53,969 nt of DNA from an uncultured Mediterraneibacter sp. Its GTDB lineage: Bacteria > Bacillota > Clostridia > Lachnospirales > Lachnospiraceae. Position numbers and translations under genes: made by a program. How positions within the stretch are numbered: the first letter of the stretch is position 1; the number at the start of each line of letters is the position of its first letter. Shown here one piece after another: positions 1 through 53,969 of the stretch. The stretch lies in the NCBI GenBank assembly GCA_944384505.1, contig CALWTQ010000017.1, positions 1-53,969 of the forward strand, read 5' to 3'. The notes below the pieces were generated by a model. That model saw only the letters and a list, made by a program, of their open reading frames with translations. It did no database searches and had not been told where the DNA came from.

Positions 1-139
1 TCCGCAGCCGGAACTTCTTAGTTTCCCTTATCCCCTGGAGCGAAGCCCTGAGTCGTCCTCCATCCCCGCAGAATACGCCTTAGAAATAGCCCCTGTTTTC
101 GAACGTTTTGCAGTAGGGTGTTATTGAACTTTATAGCTG
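1..139 (+). repeat. Palindromic repeat element, copy 1 (C-end only, cut by window start)
   Basis: This is the right-hand end of the tripartite palindromic element described at 12626-13386. It contains the outer arm of palindrome C (CCATCCCCGCAGAATACG at about 60-77, CTGTTTTCGAACGTTTTG following) and closes with the C-type terminal repeat TTGAACTTTATAGCTG ending at 139. Its left part lies outside the window. The arm has diverged more than in the complete copies, for example GTCGTCCTCC where others read GCCATCCTCC. No coding potential is seen. The promoter of the next gene begins 13 bp after the end. Confidence 0.85.
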
Positions 140-11508: not shown

Positions 11509-12636
11509 ATGTATGAACTGTTGAAAAAGGACGGACAGGCTAAACGCGGAAGACTCCATACAGTACACGGGACGATAGAGACGCCGGTGTTTATGAATGT
11601 GGGAACGGCGGCTGCGATTAAGGGGGCGGTTTCTACAGATGATCTGAGAGGAATAAAGACGCAGGTGGAACTGTCGAATACCTATCATCTCCATGTGCGT
11701 CCGGGCGATCAGATCGTAAAGAAACTGGGCGGGCTCCATAAGTTTATGAATTGGGACAAGCCGATCCTGACAGATTCCGGCGGATTCCAGGTATTTTCCC
11801 TCGCTTCCCTGCGGAAGATCAAAGAGGAGGGGGTGCACTTCCATTCCCATGTAGACGGGAGAAAGATTTTCATGGGGCCGGAGGAGAGCATGCGGATCCA
11901 GTCAAACCTGGCGTCAACGATCGCCATGGCTTTTGACGAGTGTCCTTCCAGTGTGGCGGATAAAAAATATATTGCCAATTCTGTGGAGCGGACTGCCCGC
12001 TGGCTGAAGCGCTGCAAGGCGGAGATGGAAAGACTGAACACCCTTCCGGATACAATCAATCCTCATCAGATGCTTTTCGGTATCAATCAGGGAGGCGTAT
12101 ACGAGGATATCCGCATTGCGCATGCGGAACAGATTTCCGAGCTTGACCTGGACGGATACGCGGTGGGGGGTCTGGCGGTAGGAGAGAGCCATGAGGATAT
12201 GTACCGTATTCTGGATGCGGTAGTGCCGCATCTTCCGGAAAACAAGCCCACTTATCTGATGGGCGTGGGCACCCCGGCCAATATTCTGGAGGCCGTGGAC
12301 AGAGGGGTTGACTTCTTTGACTGCGTGTACCCGTCGAGAAATGGGAGACATGGACATGTATATACAAATCACGGGAAGATGAATCTCTTTAACGCAAAAT
12401 ACGAGCTGGATGAGCGGCCGATTGAGGAAGGCTGCGGATGTCCGGCCTGCAGAAGCTACAGCAGAGCTTATATCCGGCATCTTCTGAAGGCAAAGGAAAT
12501 GCTGGGGATGAGACTGTGCGTCCTCCACAACCTGTATTTTTATAATACGATGATGGAAGAAATCCGCGATGCAATCGAGGCGGGGAACTATAAAGCCTAC
12601 AAAAAAGCAAAGCTGGAGGGCATGTCAGCTATTTAG
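11509..12636 (+). CDS. tgt: tRNA-guanine transglycosylase (queuine tRNA-ribosyltransferase)
   Basis: A 375-residue enzyme that exchanges guanine-34 for preQ1 in GUN-anticodon tRNAs. The DSGGFQVFSL motif near residue 87 and YPSRNGRHG (base and tRNA binding) are present, and the structural zinc ligands are Cys309, Cys311, Cys314 and His340. A GAGG sits seven bases before the start. The last codons (GCT ATT TAG) lie inside the terminal inverted repeat of the element that begins at 12626, so the gene ends in Ala-Ile contributed by the repeat. yajC, its usual neighbour, follows only after the 761-bp element. Confidence 0.97.
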   Translation: MYELLKKDGQAKRGRLHTVHGTIETPVFMNVGTAAAIKGAVSTDDLRGIKTQVELSNTYHLHVRPGDQIVKKLGGLHKFMNWDKPILTDSGGFQVFSLASLRKIKEEGVHFHSHVDGRKIFMGPEESMRIQSNLASTIAMAFDECPSSVADKKYIANSVERTARWLKRCKAEMERLNTLPDTINPHQMLFGINQGGVYEDIRIAHAEQISELDLDGYAVGGLAVGESHEDMYRILDAVVPHLPENKPTYLMGVGTPANILEAVDRGVDFFDCVYPSRNGRHGHVYTNHGKMNLFNAKYELDERPIEEGCGCPACRSYSRAYIRHLLKAKEMLGMRLCVLHNLYFYNTMMEEIRDAIEAGNYKAYKKAKLEGMSAI

Positions 12637-13386
12637 TTCACTACCATTTCTTATGACTCACGTCCGGAAGCGGAACAGATGTTTGAAACGTGTTCTTGGA
12701 GAGGGGACGTGCGTGTACTGCTCCGTTCCGGAATCCGGGAAGAATCTAAGAAGCCGGAGAGCTGTTTAAGTGCAAAGCGGCGCTCCGGGCAACTCGCTTC
12801 GCTCAAACAATCCCTGCGCGCCGCTTAACAACAGCTCTCCGACTTCTAAGATCTTCCATCAGATTCCTCCAAAGTCACAGTCCCCACACGCCCCCTCTCC
12901 AAAAACTTACGCTTCAAACATCCGCTCCGCTTCCTGCGCATCTCCTGTCAGAAATGTTACTGCCTCAAATGAGCTGTAAAGCACGAATTGGCGCGGCTTG
13001 GGGACTTTCGGCTGAGAAGCTTTCCGGCCGCGCCTGCTTTGCATAGCAGCTGTATATTCACTGACTCCCGATTTGTAAAGCCCAGAAAACAGCCTCATTT
13101 CGAGAAAGATTCTGCGGGGATGGAGGATGGCGACGGGCGCCTTCGGAAGGGGATTAGGGAAAGTTAAAGCTGCGGCGACAGACGTTAGGGCTGACGGTGG
13201 AATTGTCTGAGCGGATGCGAGTTGTCCACCGTCAGTCCTTGCATTTAGTCTGTCGCCGCAGCTTTTAGTTTCCCTTATTCCCTGGAGCGAAGTCCTGAGC
13301 CATCCTCCATCCCCGCAGAATACGTTTTAGGAATAGTTGCTGTTTTCGGAAGTTTTGTAGCAGGGCGTTAGTGAACTAAATAGCTG
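12626..13386 (+). repeat. Tripartite palindromic repeat element, copy 2 (complete, A-B-C orientation)
   Basis: This 761-bp non-coding element is bounded by CAGCTATTTAGTTCACTA and its reverse complement at the right end. Inside are three abutting palindromes meeting at AGCT: A 12627-12975, B 12972-13051, C 13048-13385. A pairs over arms of about 160 bp (AAGCGGCGC with GCGCCGCTT at the tip). B pairs GGCGCGGC with GCCGCGCC. C pairs AAGCTGCGGCGACAGAC with GTCTGTCGCCGCAGCTT. The apical loops of A (12790-12811) and C (13202-13224) are mutually complementary. No target duplication flanks it. A 69-codon reading frame at 12770-12979 is only a reading of the A and B arms. The element separates tgt from yajC. 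Confidence 0.92.
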
Positions 13387-20872: not shown

Positions 20873-21637
20873 CAGCTATATAGTTCACTTACGTCTGGAT
20901 CATAAACGTCCGAAAACAGAGACTATTTTAAAAACGTATTCTGCGGTGATGGAGGAGGACTCCGGGCTTCGCTCCAGGGGATAAGGGAATCTAAAAGCTG
21001 CGGCGACAGACTAAATGCAAGGAATGACGGTGGACAACTCGCATCCGCTCAAACAATTCCACCGTCATTCCTAACGTCTGTCACCGCAGCTTTAACTTTC
21101 CCTAATCCCCTTCCGAAGGCGCCCGGAGTCCTCCTCCATCACCGCAGAATTTTTCTCGAAATAGGGCTGTTTTCTGGGCTTTCTAAATTGGACATCAGTG
21201 AATATATAGCTTCCAGAAGTAAGGCGCGGCCGGAAGACTTTCGCAACGAAAAGCCCTCACGCCGCGCCAAATTGCGCTTTACAGCTCTGTTTAGGGCAAT
21301 AACATTTCCGTCTGGAAAAGCGCAGGAAGCGGAGCGGATATTTTGAGCGTATAATCTGAGGGAGGGAACAGGAGGGACATGCGCCTTTGGAGGAATCTGT
21401 TGGAAGATCTTAGAAGGCGGAGAGGTGTTGTTAAGCGGTACGGCGGGGTTGTCTGAGTGAAACGAGTTCCCCGGCGTACCGCTTTGCTGTTAAACAACTC
21501 TTCGGCTTCTTAGATTCTTCCCAGATTCCGGAACGAAGCATGGAACTTCTGTTCCCTTCATCAGAATACGCGTTACAAAATATCCGCTCCGCTTCCGGAC
21601 ACATTTTGACGGAAAAGATTATTGCGCTAAATAGCTG
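20873..21637 (-). repeat. Tripartite palindromic repeat element, copy 3 (complete, C-B-A on the plus strand)
   Basis: A 765-bp copy in inverted orientation relative to copy 2. Palindrome C is 20874-21211 (338 bp, the same length as in copies 2 and 4), B is 21208-21286, A is 21283-21636. Terminal repeats are CAGCTATATAGTTCACTT on the left and TTGCGCTAAATAGCTG on the right. It is the most diverged full copy, yet changes in one arm are mostly matched in the other: the A tip reads GCGGTAC/GTACCGC instead of GCGGCGC/GCGCCGC. Apical loops are at 21035-21057 (C) and 21448-21469 (A). It lies four bases after the serA stop and eleven bases before the next promoter. Confidence 0.92.
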
Positions 21638-39834: not shown

Positions 39835-40595
39835 CAGCTATAAAGTTCACTAACTTGCGTGTGTAAAACGTCCGAAAACAGAGTTGATTCTCAAAACGTA
39901 TTCTGCGGGGATGGAGGGCGGCTCAGGGCTTCGCTCCAGGAGATAAGTGAAACTAAAAGCTGCGGCGACAGACTAAATGCAAGGGCTGACGGCGGACAAC
40001 TCGCATCCGCTCAGACAATTCCACCGTCAGCCCTAACGTCTGTCGCCGCAGCTTTAACTTTCACTAATCCCCTTCCGAAGGCGCCCGTCGCCATCCTCCA
40101 TCCCCGCAGAATTTTTCTCGGAATGGGGCTGTTTTCTGGGCTTCACAAATCGGAAGCAAGTGAATATATAGCTGCTGCACGAAGCAGGCGCGGCCGGAAG
40201 ACTTTCGTAATGGAAAGCCTCCAAGCCGCGCCAGTTGTACGTCTCAGCCTGTTTAGGGCAGTAACATTTCCGACAGGAGATGCGCAGGAAGCGGAGCGGA
40301 TGTTTGAAGCGTAAGTTCTTGGAGAGGGGGCGTGTGGGGACTGTGACTTTGGAGGAATCTGATGGAAGATCTTAGAAGCCGGAGAGATGTTGTTAAGCGG
40401 CGCGCAGGGATTGTCTGAGCAAAGCGAGTTGCCCGGAGCGCCGCTTTGCACTTAAACAGCTCTCCGGCTTCTTAGATTCTTCCCAGATTTCGGAACGGAA
40501 CAGTACACACACGTCCCCTCTCCTAGAACACGCTTCAAACATCCGCTCCGCTTCCGGACGTAAGTCACAGGAAATGTTAGTGCGCTAAATAGCTG
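39835..40595 (-). repeat. Tripartite palindromic repeat element, copy 4 (complete, C-B-A on the plus strand)
   Basis: A 761-bp copy between the convergent DUF1653 and prs-like genes, five bases after one stop codon and four bases before the other. C is 39836-40173 (338 bp), B about 40170-40249, A 40246-40594. The AGCT between B and A is mutated to AGCC here. Terminal repeats are CAGCTATAAAGTTCACTAAC and GTTAGTGCGCTAAATAGCTG. Apical loops are at 39997-40019 (C) and 40410-40431 (A). The A arms are nearly perfect complements for about 165 bp. A 102-codon frame at 40143-40451 on the minus strand is a reading of the palindrome, not a gene. Confidence 0.92.
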
Positions 40596-48039: not shown

Positions 48040-48617
48040 CAGCTATTTAGCGCACTAACATTTCCTGTGGCTCACGTCCGGAAGCGGAGCGGATGGTTTT
48101 CGATACGTATTCTGTGAAAGGGGACAGCCGTGCGATATTCCGTTCCAGAATCCGGAAAATCTAATAGGCCGAAGAGATGTTTAAATGCAAAGCGGCGCTC
48201 CGGGCAACTCGCTCTGCTCAGACAATCCCTGCGCGCCGCTTAACAACATCTCTCCGCCCTCAAGATTTTCAGCGGATTCCTCCAAAGTCACATCTCCCGG
48301 CTGTCCCCTTCCCCAGAAAGTATGCTCAAACCATCCGCTCCGCTTCCTGGGCATTTCCTGTCGGAAATGTTACTGCCCTAAACAGAGCTGTAAAGCGCGA
48401 ATTGGCGCGGCTTGCAGGCTTTCCTCTGCGAAAGTCTTCCGGCCGCGCCTGCTTCTTCTGACAGCTATATATTCACTGACTTCCGGCTTGAAAAGCCCAG
48501 AAAACAGCTCCCTTTCGAAGGCGCCCGTCGCCATCCTCCATCCCCGCAGAATACGTTTTAGGAATAGTTGCTGTTTTCGGAAGTTTTGGAGCAGGGCGTT
48601 AGTGAACTATATAGCTG
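48040..48617 (+). repeat. Tripartite palindromic repeat element, copy 5 (internally deleted)
   Basis: A 578-bp copy in A-B-C orientation, eight bases after the spoIVA stop. A is 48041-48389, B 48386-48466. C (48463-48616) is only 154 bp instead of 338: the left arm and apical loop are missing, and the sequence jumps from CAGAAAACAGCTCC to TTTCGAAGGCGCCCGTCGCC, which is the complement of what normally stands in that arm. Terminal repeats CAGCTATTTAGCGCACTAAC and TTAGTGAACTATATAGCTG are intact. A frame of 164 codons from 48185 is a chance reading. The pnp promoter starts 35 bp later. Confidence 0.9.
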
Positions 48618-52718: not shown

Positions 52719-52822
52719 ACTGGCCTGGTATAAAAATGCAATTCTGGATATTTCAAACCAATCCATATCTGATATACTTTTCCATAAAGATTTTTAAAAA
52801 TTCAAAAGAGAGGTATATCATT

Positions 52823-53668
52823 ATGAAACGGATTGTAACACTTCAGGACATATCCTGCGTCGGCTGCTGCTCTACTACAGTCGCCCTGCCGGTTATTTCC
52901 GCGATGGGCGTGGAGTGCAGTATCCTGCCGACCGCTGTATTATCCAATCACACAATGTTTAAAGAGTTTACCTGTGTAGATCTGTCAGATCAGATTGAAC
53001 CCATAGCAGAGGCATGGAAACGCCAGAACATTGCCTTTGACGGAATCTACACGGGGTATCTGGCGTCAGAAGAACAGTGCGGGCAGGTCGCGGAGTTCTT
53101 TGACCGGTTCTCGGAGAATCATCCTTTGATCATAGTGGATCCGGCCATGGCGGATAACGGAAAGCTCTATCCGGCTTTCGGGGAAACGTTCCCTGCGGCA
53201 ATGGCAAAGGTCTGCGCGAAGGCAGACGTCATTCTCCCCAATATTACAGAAGCGGCGCTTCTGACTCAAATGCCGTATAAGACGGAATATGACAGAGACT
53301 ATATCAGGGAACTTCTGGAAAAGCTCCTGGATCTTGGATGCGGCACCGCGGTTCTTACCGGAGTGAGCTTTGAGCCGGGCCGCCTGGGGGTGGCATATCT
53401 TGACCGGAACGGAAAAGAATTTACCTATTTCACAAAATGGTGTGAGCAGTCCTATCATGGCACGGGAGATATCTTCGCATCCACCGTAACCGGCGGGCTT
53501 ATGAGGGGGCTTGACCTGGGGGCGGCTCTTACGATCGCGGTGGACTATGTTGTCGCGTGCATTGAACAGACGGCGGCCTCGGAGAGCGGACGCTGGTATG
53601 GGGCCGAGTTCGAGCCAGTGATTCCGGAACTGTGCCGGATGCTTCAAGAGAGAGTGACAGCTATTTAG
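52823..53668 (+). CDS. Pyridoxal/pyridoxamine kinase (PdxK/PdxY-like)
   Basis: A 281-residue ribokinase-fold vitamin B6 kinase. QDISCVGCCSTTVALPVIS at the N-terminus, DPAMADNGKLYPAF in the middle, NITEAALL, and the catalytic SYHGTGDIFASTVTGG near residue 225 are family motifs. The GTGD aspartate is the catalytic base. AGAGAGGT precedes the ATG at 52823; an ATG at 52736 lies in AT-rich promoter-like sequence (TATACT at about 52774). The final codons GCT ATT TAG are within the terminal repeat of element copy 6, so as in tgt the protein ends Ala-Ile from the repeat. Confidence 0.92.
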   Translation: MKRIVTLQDISCVGCCSTTVALPVISAMGVECSILPTAVLSNHTMFKEFTCVDLSDQIEPIAEAWKRQNIAFDGIYTGYLASEEQCGQVAEFFDRFSENHPLIIVDPAMADNGKLYPAFGETFPAAMAKVCAKADVILPNITEAALLTQMPYKTEYDRDYIRELLEKLLDLGCGTAVLTGVSFEPGRLGVAYLDRNGKEFTYFTKWCEQSYHGTGDIFASTVTGGLMRGLDLGAALTIAVDYVVACIEQTAASESGRWYGAEFEPVIPELCRMLQERVTAI

Positions 53669-53969
53669 CGCACTAACAATTCCTATGACTCACGTTCGGA
53701 AGCGGAGGGGATGTTTGAAACGTGTTCTTGGGGAGGGGCGTGTGTGAACTGTTCCGTTCCGGAATCCGGGAAGAATCTAAGAAGTCGAAGAGCTGTTTAA
53801 GGGCAAAGCGGCGCTCCGGGCAACTCGCTACGCTCAGACAATCCCTGCGCGCCGCTTAACAACAGCTCTCCGACTTCTAAGATCTTCCATCAGATTCCTC
53901 CAAAGTCACAGTCCCCACACGCCCCTCTCCAAGAACTCACGCTTCAAACATCCGCTCCGCTTCCTGCGT
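53658..53969 (+). repeat. Tripartite palindromic repeat element, copy 6 (A part, cut by window end)
   Basis: It begins CAGCTATTTAGCGCACTAAC at 53658, the A-type terminal repeat shared with copies 4 and 5, and covers almost all of palindrome A up to the window edge. The tip reads AAGCGGCGC...GCGCCGCTT with loop CAACTCGC...GCTCAGACAAT (53820-53841). It overlaps the last 11 bases of the pyridoxal kinase gene and provides its stop codon. No coding potential is seen in this stretch. Confidence 0.9.

Follow-up and report, generated by a model that had tools for sequence, protein, structure and literature searches.

What is the element described as filling the long gene-free stretches of a Lachnospiraceae contig, and how did it come to lie there? 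The window analyzed here, 53,969 nt in length, is the complete contig C17 of the 3.95-Mb, 141-contig draft genome of an uncultured Mediterraneibacter sp. The initial annotation described six copies of a non-coding family of about 760 bp, each full copy made of three abutting, near-perfect palindromes (A, B and C), and left the choice between a foldback mobile element moved in trans and a large structured RNA or DNA.

Architecture of the Element

A repeat search reproduced the coordinates of all six copies (Table 1), and within the window the family is gene-less, dispersed and present in both orientations, as first described. Copies 1 and 6 are incomplete because the window is the whole contig. 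Full copies measure 761–765 bp; copy 2 has 761 bp, holds no gene, and its terminal inverted repeats match at 16 of 16 positions. Palindrome A spans 345–350 bp and palindrome B 76–78 bp (copies 2–5). Palindrome C is 339 bp long in copies 2, 3 and 4, and the 338 bp originally given for it are indeed the distance from AGCT to AGCT in these three; in copy 5 it is reduced to 155 bp, its middle gone. In some copies the end repeat is followed, 16 nt farther out, by another one, and L477:182-521 is a solo hairpin unit flanked on either side by end repeats.

Table 1. Positions of the element copies and their parts in the window.
Feature	Position	Strand	Remarks	Basis
Copy 1	1..139	+	3' part of palindrome C; cut by contig start	Repeat search
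Copy 2	12626..13386	+	Full element A-B-C	
Copy 2, 5' terminal inverted repeat CAGCTATTTAGTTCAC	12626..12641	+	Exact inverse of 13371-13386	
Copy 2, 3' terminal inverted repeat	13371..13386	+		
Copy 2, core of palindrome A	12733..12860	- (canonical strand)	120.3 bits	Model R1
Copy 2, spacer hairpin B	12971..13047	+	GC-rich, 77 bp	
Copy 2, core of palindrome C	13153..13280	+ (canonical strand)	136.0 bits	Model R1
Copy 3	20873..21637	-	Full, reversed; 3 nt past stop of phosphoglycerate-dehydrogenase-like gene	
Copy 3, hairpin core C	20979..21106	-		Model R1
Copy 4	39835..40595	-	Full, reversed; between convergent ORFs, stops 5 and 4 nt away	
Copy 4, hairpin core C	39941..40068	-		Model R1
Copy 4, hairpin core A	40361..40488	+		Model R1
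Copy 5	48040..48617	+	C lacks middle; 8 nt past spoIVA stop	
Copy 5, hairpin core A	48149..48274	-		Model R1
Copy 6	53658..53969	+	Cut by contig end	
Copy 6, hairpin core A	53764..53891	-		Model R1

The palindromes are real, but "near-perfect" overstates them: self-complementarity in the full copies is 0.69–0.74 for A and C and 0.57–0.68 for B, compared with 20 shuffled 340-mers that average 0.50 and reach 0.53 at most. Folded as single-stranded DNA, copy 2 reaches -208.7 kcal/mol, compared with -110.1 (sd 5.4) for its shuffles (z -18), none of 20 of which folded as well.

Nor are the three palindromes independent. All three are present, but A and C, each read on the right strand, are diverged versions of one hairpin placed head to head around B. 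The conserved tip of this hairpin consists of TTGTYTGA, a GC mini-stem of 2–3 bp with a short loop, and GAGTT (TTGTYTGA-GC-loop-GC-GAGTT). A and C also share two internal loops, one reading CGTTA in the 5' arm and TTTAG in the 3' arm, the second with CTTA and TTAG. The letters of the tip and of GTTA/TTTAG are largely invariant, and the asymmetric internal loops are among the best conserved parts. The stems, by contrast, vary by compensation: in the alignment of 41 cores from 20 genomes behind core model R1, in which six rows picked from 91 found represent the own genome, 39 of 44 pairs have changed on both sides. Paired cells make up 91.5% of this alignment, against 67.1% after shuffling (500 shuffles, all lower) and no more than 50.0% after sliding. 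The loop of the mini-hairpin is often GNA: in 27 of 49 tips of the own genome, 50 of 86 tips of relatives and 14 of 25 tips from plasmids and later loci, as well as in 18 of 20 viral tips, where the search pattern forces it. The DNA mini-hairpin d(GCGNAGC) is unusually stable.

Among 150 cores of the own genome, all 22 close pairs run (-) then (+) and lie 411–420 nt apart. The head-to-head layout recurs in genomes G102 (374 nt) and G528 (343 nt), in Variovorax (409 nt) and in a Parabacteroides record (364 nt); many other copies are single hairpins, for example in G029.

Copy Number and Assembly

Further copies were expected elsewhere in the genome, and they are abundant. The terminal 11-mer CAGCTATTTAG occurs exactly 195 times, compared with two occurrences of the backward control, and the core model matched all 150 candidates scored out of 957, giving at least 150 cores. 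As most full elements hold two cores, the genome carries roughly a hundred or more elements. By blast, copies are 80–91% identical to copy 2 (40 scored of 329 candidates). No fewer than 30 of the 141 contigs begin 800 bases or less from a core or an element end; the repeats thus probably break up draft assemblies, this one included.

Location and Neighboring Genes

Orthologous loci provide an empty site. Copy 2 follows tgt, and in 13 of the 14 relatives viewed, tgt and yajC (the latter recognized by eye) are separated by a short, element-free spacer; the fourteenth (L184) has a different neighbor at tgt. The nearest loci by tgt protein come from Lachnoclostridium sp. An76, a Mediterraneibacter MAG, a Lachnospiraceae MAG and Ca. 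Mediterraneibacter quadrami, which makes Mediterraneibacter in the wide sense the most likely genus. Across 80 tgt loci, some of them cut off shortly past the gene, a single core was seen, on the other side of tgt. By eye, the flanks viewed contain no constant target duplication; the copies are old. The best genome match to copy 2 is only 91% identical, so no recent jump was caught. When flanks of relatives' copies were compared with 30 own copies, nearly all matches were element to element and came from truncated loci.

The elements sit closely behind genes. Placement was assessed by mechanical ORFs on 24 full copies, six of 30 loci having been dropped as cut by contig ends and four borders being approximate. 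Nineteen of 24 adjoining gene 3' ends lie at -11 to +8 nt from the element, and 22 of 24 gene 5' ends at 11–590 nt, with two reading -16; 17 of the 24 full copies abut a stop codon. In the window, the end repeat of copy 2 supplies the TAG stop of tgt (12634-12636), the element taking over the last tgt codons, and the terminal repeat of copy 6 supplies that of a pyridoxamine kinase gene (52736-53668).

In other genera and families, 80 stretches minus two without a tip and three duplicates left 75 hairpins. Their median distance is 43 nt to gene 3' ends (n = 77) and 144 nt to 5' ends (n = 68; p 0.002). Precise stop-codon abutment thus characterizes the own genome, and the 3' preference is general. 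The gene contexts are 21 sense, 31 antisense, 11 convergent and 7 divergent. With 21 sense against 31 antisense among the 52 tandem contexts (p 0.21), the canonical strand has no link with transcript sense, and a sense-strand RNA role was rejected on these counts.

Mutation Patterns

What keeps the hairpin intact? On the canonical strand, at consensus Watson-Crick pairs, G-T mismatches outnumber A-C mismatches by 144:63 in A and 126:67 in C; the cells are not independent, and by pair columns the ratios are 58:34 and 43:30, together p 0.005. A bias tied to the replication strand would cancel out between A and C, which occupy opposite strands; one strand therefore seems to have been selected as a single strand. 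If all mismatches are counted, conserved ones too, the raw G-T:A-C figures for inner and outer positions become 164:24 and 228:174 for the own genome, 129:19 and 176:113 for the genus, and 189:90 and 62:76 for other genera and families. The invariant T-G pair explains only part of the strand excess in other genera, as the 189 drops to 148 when T-G pairs in a GT context are removed. Changes unique to one copy have no G-T excess (36:30).

Compensation also differs between shared and unique changes. States found in at least two copies are compensated in 45 of 167 cases, those seen once in 27 of 197. By cells, the proportions are 245 of 793 for shared changes and 6 of 130 for changes all confined to a single copy, a contrast inflated by the repetition of inherited changes and weaker by states. 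As shared changes are more often compensated than once-seen ones, the constraint seems to act mainly on the spreading lineage and less on single copies. Single copies that mostly drift within a constrained lineage are as expected of a mobile element. The six recent double changes, against 0.36 expected under independent mutation, point to some correction or selection on single copies too.

In genome G103, the outer arms of four copies pair at 200 of 202 positions with letters differing from copy to copy, and a fifth copy, aligned further out, pairs at 91 of 112. Together with the lack of strand bias in the outer arms of other genera, this makes the outer arms look corrected at the DNA level, and the core selected.

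Distribution in Relatives, Other Phyla and Phages

The suggestion that other Lachnospiraceae be searched proved fruitful. In the counts that follow, which include the own genome, DNA similarity found matches in 22 of the 58 genomes from the genus and in 5 of the 299 from the family, four of the latter, besides the own, matching over stretches of 28–41 nt. The core model detected the hairpin in 48 of 58 genomes of the genus, 28 of 299 of the family (one genome per genus), 10 of 246 of the order (six outside the family) and 4 of 299 of the phylum (two outside the family). At most 59, 11, 14 and 11 candidates were scored per genome at these four levels, so the counts are lower bounds. The hairpin therefore reaches beyond Lachnospiraceae. 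Distant copies, a few of which were displayed at the wrong place where loci lie at contig ends, are mostly long hairpins with tip and loops kept and stem letters different. Some genus and family relatives (L053, L055, L035, L042 and L060) carry a second type of palindromic repeat beside or in place of palindrome A, by eye about 130–140 bp long, with letters like GTAAGGCCGCAAAGGACGCGGCC..GTGCCGGCG and without an Rfam match.

The tip pattern matched 87 stretches of viral contigs, as against one for the backward pattern. In 22 of 80 viral loci viewed, it caps a hairpin of at least 44 pairs, several of these loci being near-identical to one another; the remaining 58 mostly lack such a hairpin. Model R1 matches the viral hairpin loci weakly (E 7e-6 to 0.22, 20 loci). 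The GTTA/TTTAG loop stands at its usual spacing in 6 of 23 tips viewed (L335, L325, L287, L278, L265 and Aureibacter). Two phage-type hairpins searched against plasmids and phages gave no match, and an apex query found none in phages. On four phage contigs labeled Haemophilus-like by eye (L256, L328, L268 and L272), the loop looks reversed, with TTTAG 5' and GTTA or a relative 3' around the same tip.

Tips also occur in records of Ilyobacter and Fusobacterium (Fusobacteriota), Parabacteroides and Aureibacter (Bacteroidota), Variovorax (Pseudomonadota) and Butyrivibrio. In five of these six, the sequence around the tip located first folds as a hairpin; in Ilyobacter it does not, and Ilyobacter has five other copies with arms of 44–59 nt. 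Six Pseudomonas tip rows fall within a chemotaxis gene. A looser tip pattern occurs 46 times, compared with none for its backward form, in nine records or genomes chosen as carriers. In Bacteroidota, Variovorax and some viral loci (L335, L345, L346, L278 and L348), a T-rich inverted repeat of the CTTGATTTTTTGGTTACTTTTT type follows the hairpin; it has a terminator-like look and may belong to the unit. With its tip signature in unrelated bacterial groups, the hairpin looks like a widespread mobile repeat family. Its common descent across phyla is likely, although a stable tip may also have arisen by convergence.

The Search for a Mover

The transposase search covered Y1 (PF01797). Y1_Tnp genes are present in 49 of the 58 genus genomes. 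The long form of 234–301 aa (one cut by a contig end) has constant gene neighbors, and 20 loci of such genes yielded one core match, 2.3 kb off. By hand count, cores occur in 33 of 38 genomes with the long form (a fragment in G004 counted as long) and 15 of 20 without it, a weak co-occurrence. Two long Y1_Tnp (RAYT-like) gene families (L156-L175) are apparently vertically inherited and have no hairpin core beside them. Among 11 genomes or records searched, no Y1 gene was found in the near-complete carriers G289 and G318, nor in W01, W04 and W05, which as single replicons weigh less. A RAYT/HUH enzyme as required partner was rejected on carriers G289 and G318, within the sensitivity of the search.

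In the own genome, two of four short Y1 matches lie inside or against elements, at different points, and are probably later insertions. A candidate autonomous parent on contig C15, with a Y1 gene in 1.4 kb between two end repeats, was likewise set aside as, by eye, an IS200-type insertion between B and A; by eye, contig C73 has a second one inside the A hairpin. These IS200-type genes within elements (L471 on C15 and L472 on C73) hint that the hairpins are single-strand transposon targets. No autonomous relative with matching ends was seen among the listed matches to the 195 ends.

Relation to Known Repeats

No hairpin match reached the Rfam gathering score in the window, 16 relatives and 12 viral loci, and a permissive scan returned sub-threshold microRNA models only. 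An sRNA-Xcc1 match on a viral contig (L328:555-640; 70.1 bits, cut-off 53) lies about 3.4 kb away from the hairpin and is a separate feature. A literature search by tip string, neighboring strings and topic, with subscription papers outside its scope, returned no description of the element in the accessible parts of its sources. Judging by their titles, the 4 papers that contain a tip string and the 7 with a neighboring string appear to have no relation to it; the topic papers included ones on REPINs (PMC3116915), HuH enzymes (PMC6006769) and a Porphyromonas MITE (PMC4596501).

In the accessible text of Di Nocera et al. (2013; PMC3733652), REPs of the GTAG and CGTC superfamilies are dispersed extragenic palindromes of 20–40 bp, often dimers, that lie beside gene 3' ends and whose own ends often give the stop codon, and no transposase gene accompanies the CGTC group. 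On that description, the element resembles REPs, BIMEs and REPINs in its dispersed palindromes, its head-to-head dimers (22 of 22 close pairs), its place beside gene 3' ends and its ability to give the stop codon, and the CGTC REPs in that no association with a transposase gene was found. It differs in size, 761 bp with modules of about 340 bp, and was rightly called far larger than a REP at the outset. Its conserved tip (TTGTYTGAGC..GCGAGTT) and GTTA/TTTAG loop also set it apart, as does its absence from the flanks of RAYT genes in the 20 loci examined.

Like MITEs, the element is short, gene-less, multicopy and bounded by terminal inverted repeats. By eye, its flanks showed no constant target duplication, no parent transposon was seen among the ends listed, and other genera share its inside, not its ends. 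Other dispersed repeats with predicted hairpin folds are bcr1, BOX and ERIC; by their general descriptions these resemble the element in folding but are much shorter. The element is best filed as a non-autonomous palindromic mobile repeat that works like a REP dimer or a MITE. It stands outside the REPs by size and partner, and the target duplication and parent expected of a MITE are unproven.

A Proposed Mobile Hairpin and Its Alternatives

The explanation we favor, at somewhat better than even probability, is that of a non-autonomous, REP- or MITE-like mobile hairpin that an enzyme supplied in trans would act on in the form of a folded single strand. The element has roughly 20 to 40 times the length of a REP, and its working part would be the hairpin with conserved tip and internal loops, present twice head to head (A minus, C plus) around a spacer and bounded by the 16-bp terminal inverted repeats. 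The enzyme would recognize the folded strand, more likely DNA than RNA, and copy or move the unit, leaving no constant target duplication. Copies may survive where they are harmless, just behind stop codons, and then mostly decay. We infer transposition in trans, a single-stranded substrate, and tip and loops as the recognition site. Of the alternatives initially offered, the mobile element gains from the dispersal, the empty site and the mutation pattern, and a host RNA at each site is weakened. The foldback structure, the dispersal and the empty site support a dispersed foldback family, whose movement in trans is a proposal. Against a mobile hairpin count that the Y1 search identified no mover, that no recent jump was caught, the absence, by eye, of a constant target duplication, the lack of a G-T excess in unique changes and in the outer arms of other genera, and the compensation of unique changes above independence.

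Could the hairpins instead serve the host, as bidirectional transcription terminators or mRNA-stabilizing 3' UTRs? A head-to-head pair would offer each passing transcript one correctly oriented hairpin, and the abutted stop codons, the position of copy 4 between convergent ORFs, the compensatory changes, the G-T excess on one strand and the surplus of recent doubles all fit such a role. It is nevertheless quite unlikely, as states seen once are less compensated than shared ones, the tandem contexts in other genera and families show no preferred sense, and relatives do without the element between tgt and yajC. The RNA-like covariation and the canonical-strand G-T excess would also suit a family of large structured non-coding RNAs that spread by chance or along with another mobile element; this appears improbable given only sub-threshold microRNA models in Rfam, A and C on opposite strands of one element, and orientations without link to the genes.

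Correction of the arms at the DNA level, by template switching, might also maintain palindromes that have no function and of which only the tip is old. The near-complete pairing of arms with differing letters in G103, the unbiased outer arms in other genera and the recent doubles above chance speak for such correction. As a full account it is unlikely: correction should erase asymmetric internal loops, yet these are among the best conserved parts, the strand bias in cores is not expected from it, and it leaves the dispersal unexplained.

Implications

A broader version of the mobile hairpin may be entertained tentatively: one ancient class of selfish giant hairpins, present in at least four bacterial phyla and in phages, defined by TTGTYTGA, a stem of 2–3 bp, a short, often GNA loop, GAGTT and the GTTA/TTTAG loop. 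Its stems would be free to vary as long as the arms stay complementary, and its mover would be no HUH transposase but a recombinase, or a step of replication, guided by the shape of the single strand. If this is right, gut and other bacteria would harbor a common class of repeats, so far without a name, that sit behind stop codons and are mobilized by hairpin shape without a known enzyme. The comparisons of G-T with A-C mismatches and of shared with unique changes would be applicable to REPs and other palindromic repeats as well.
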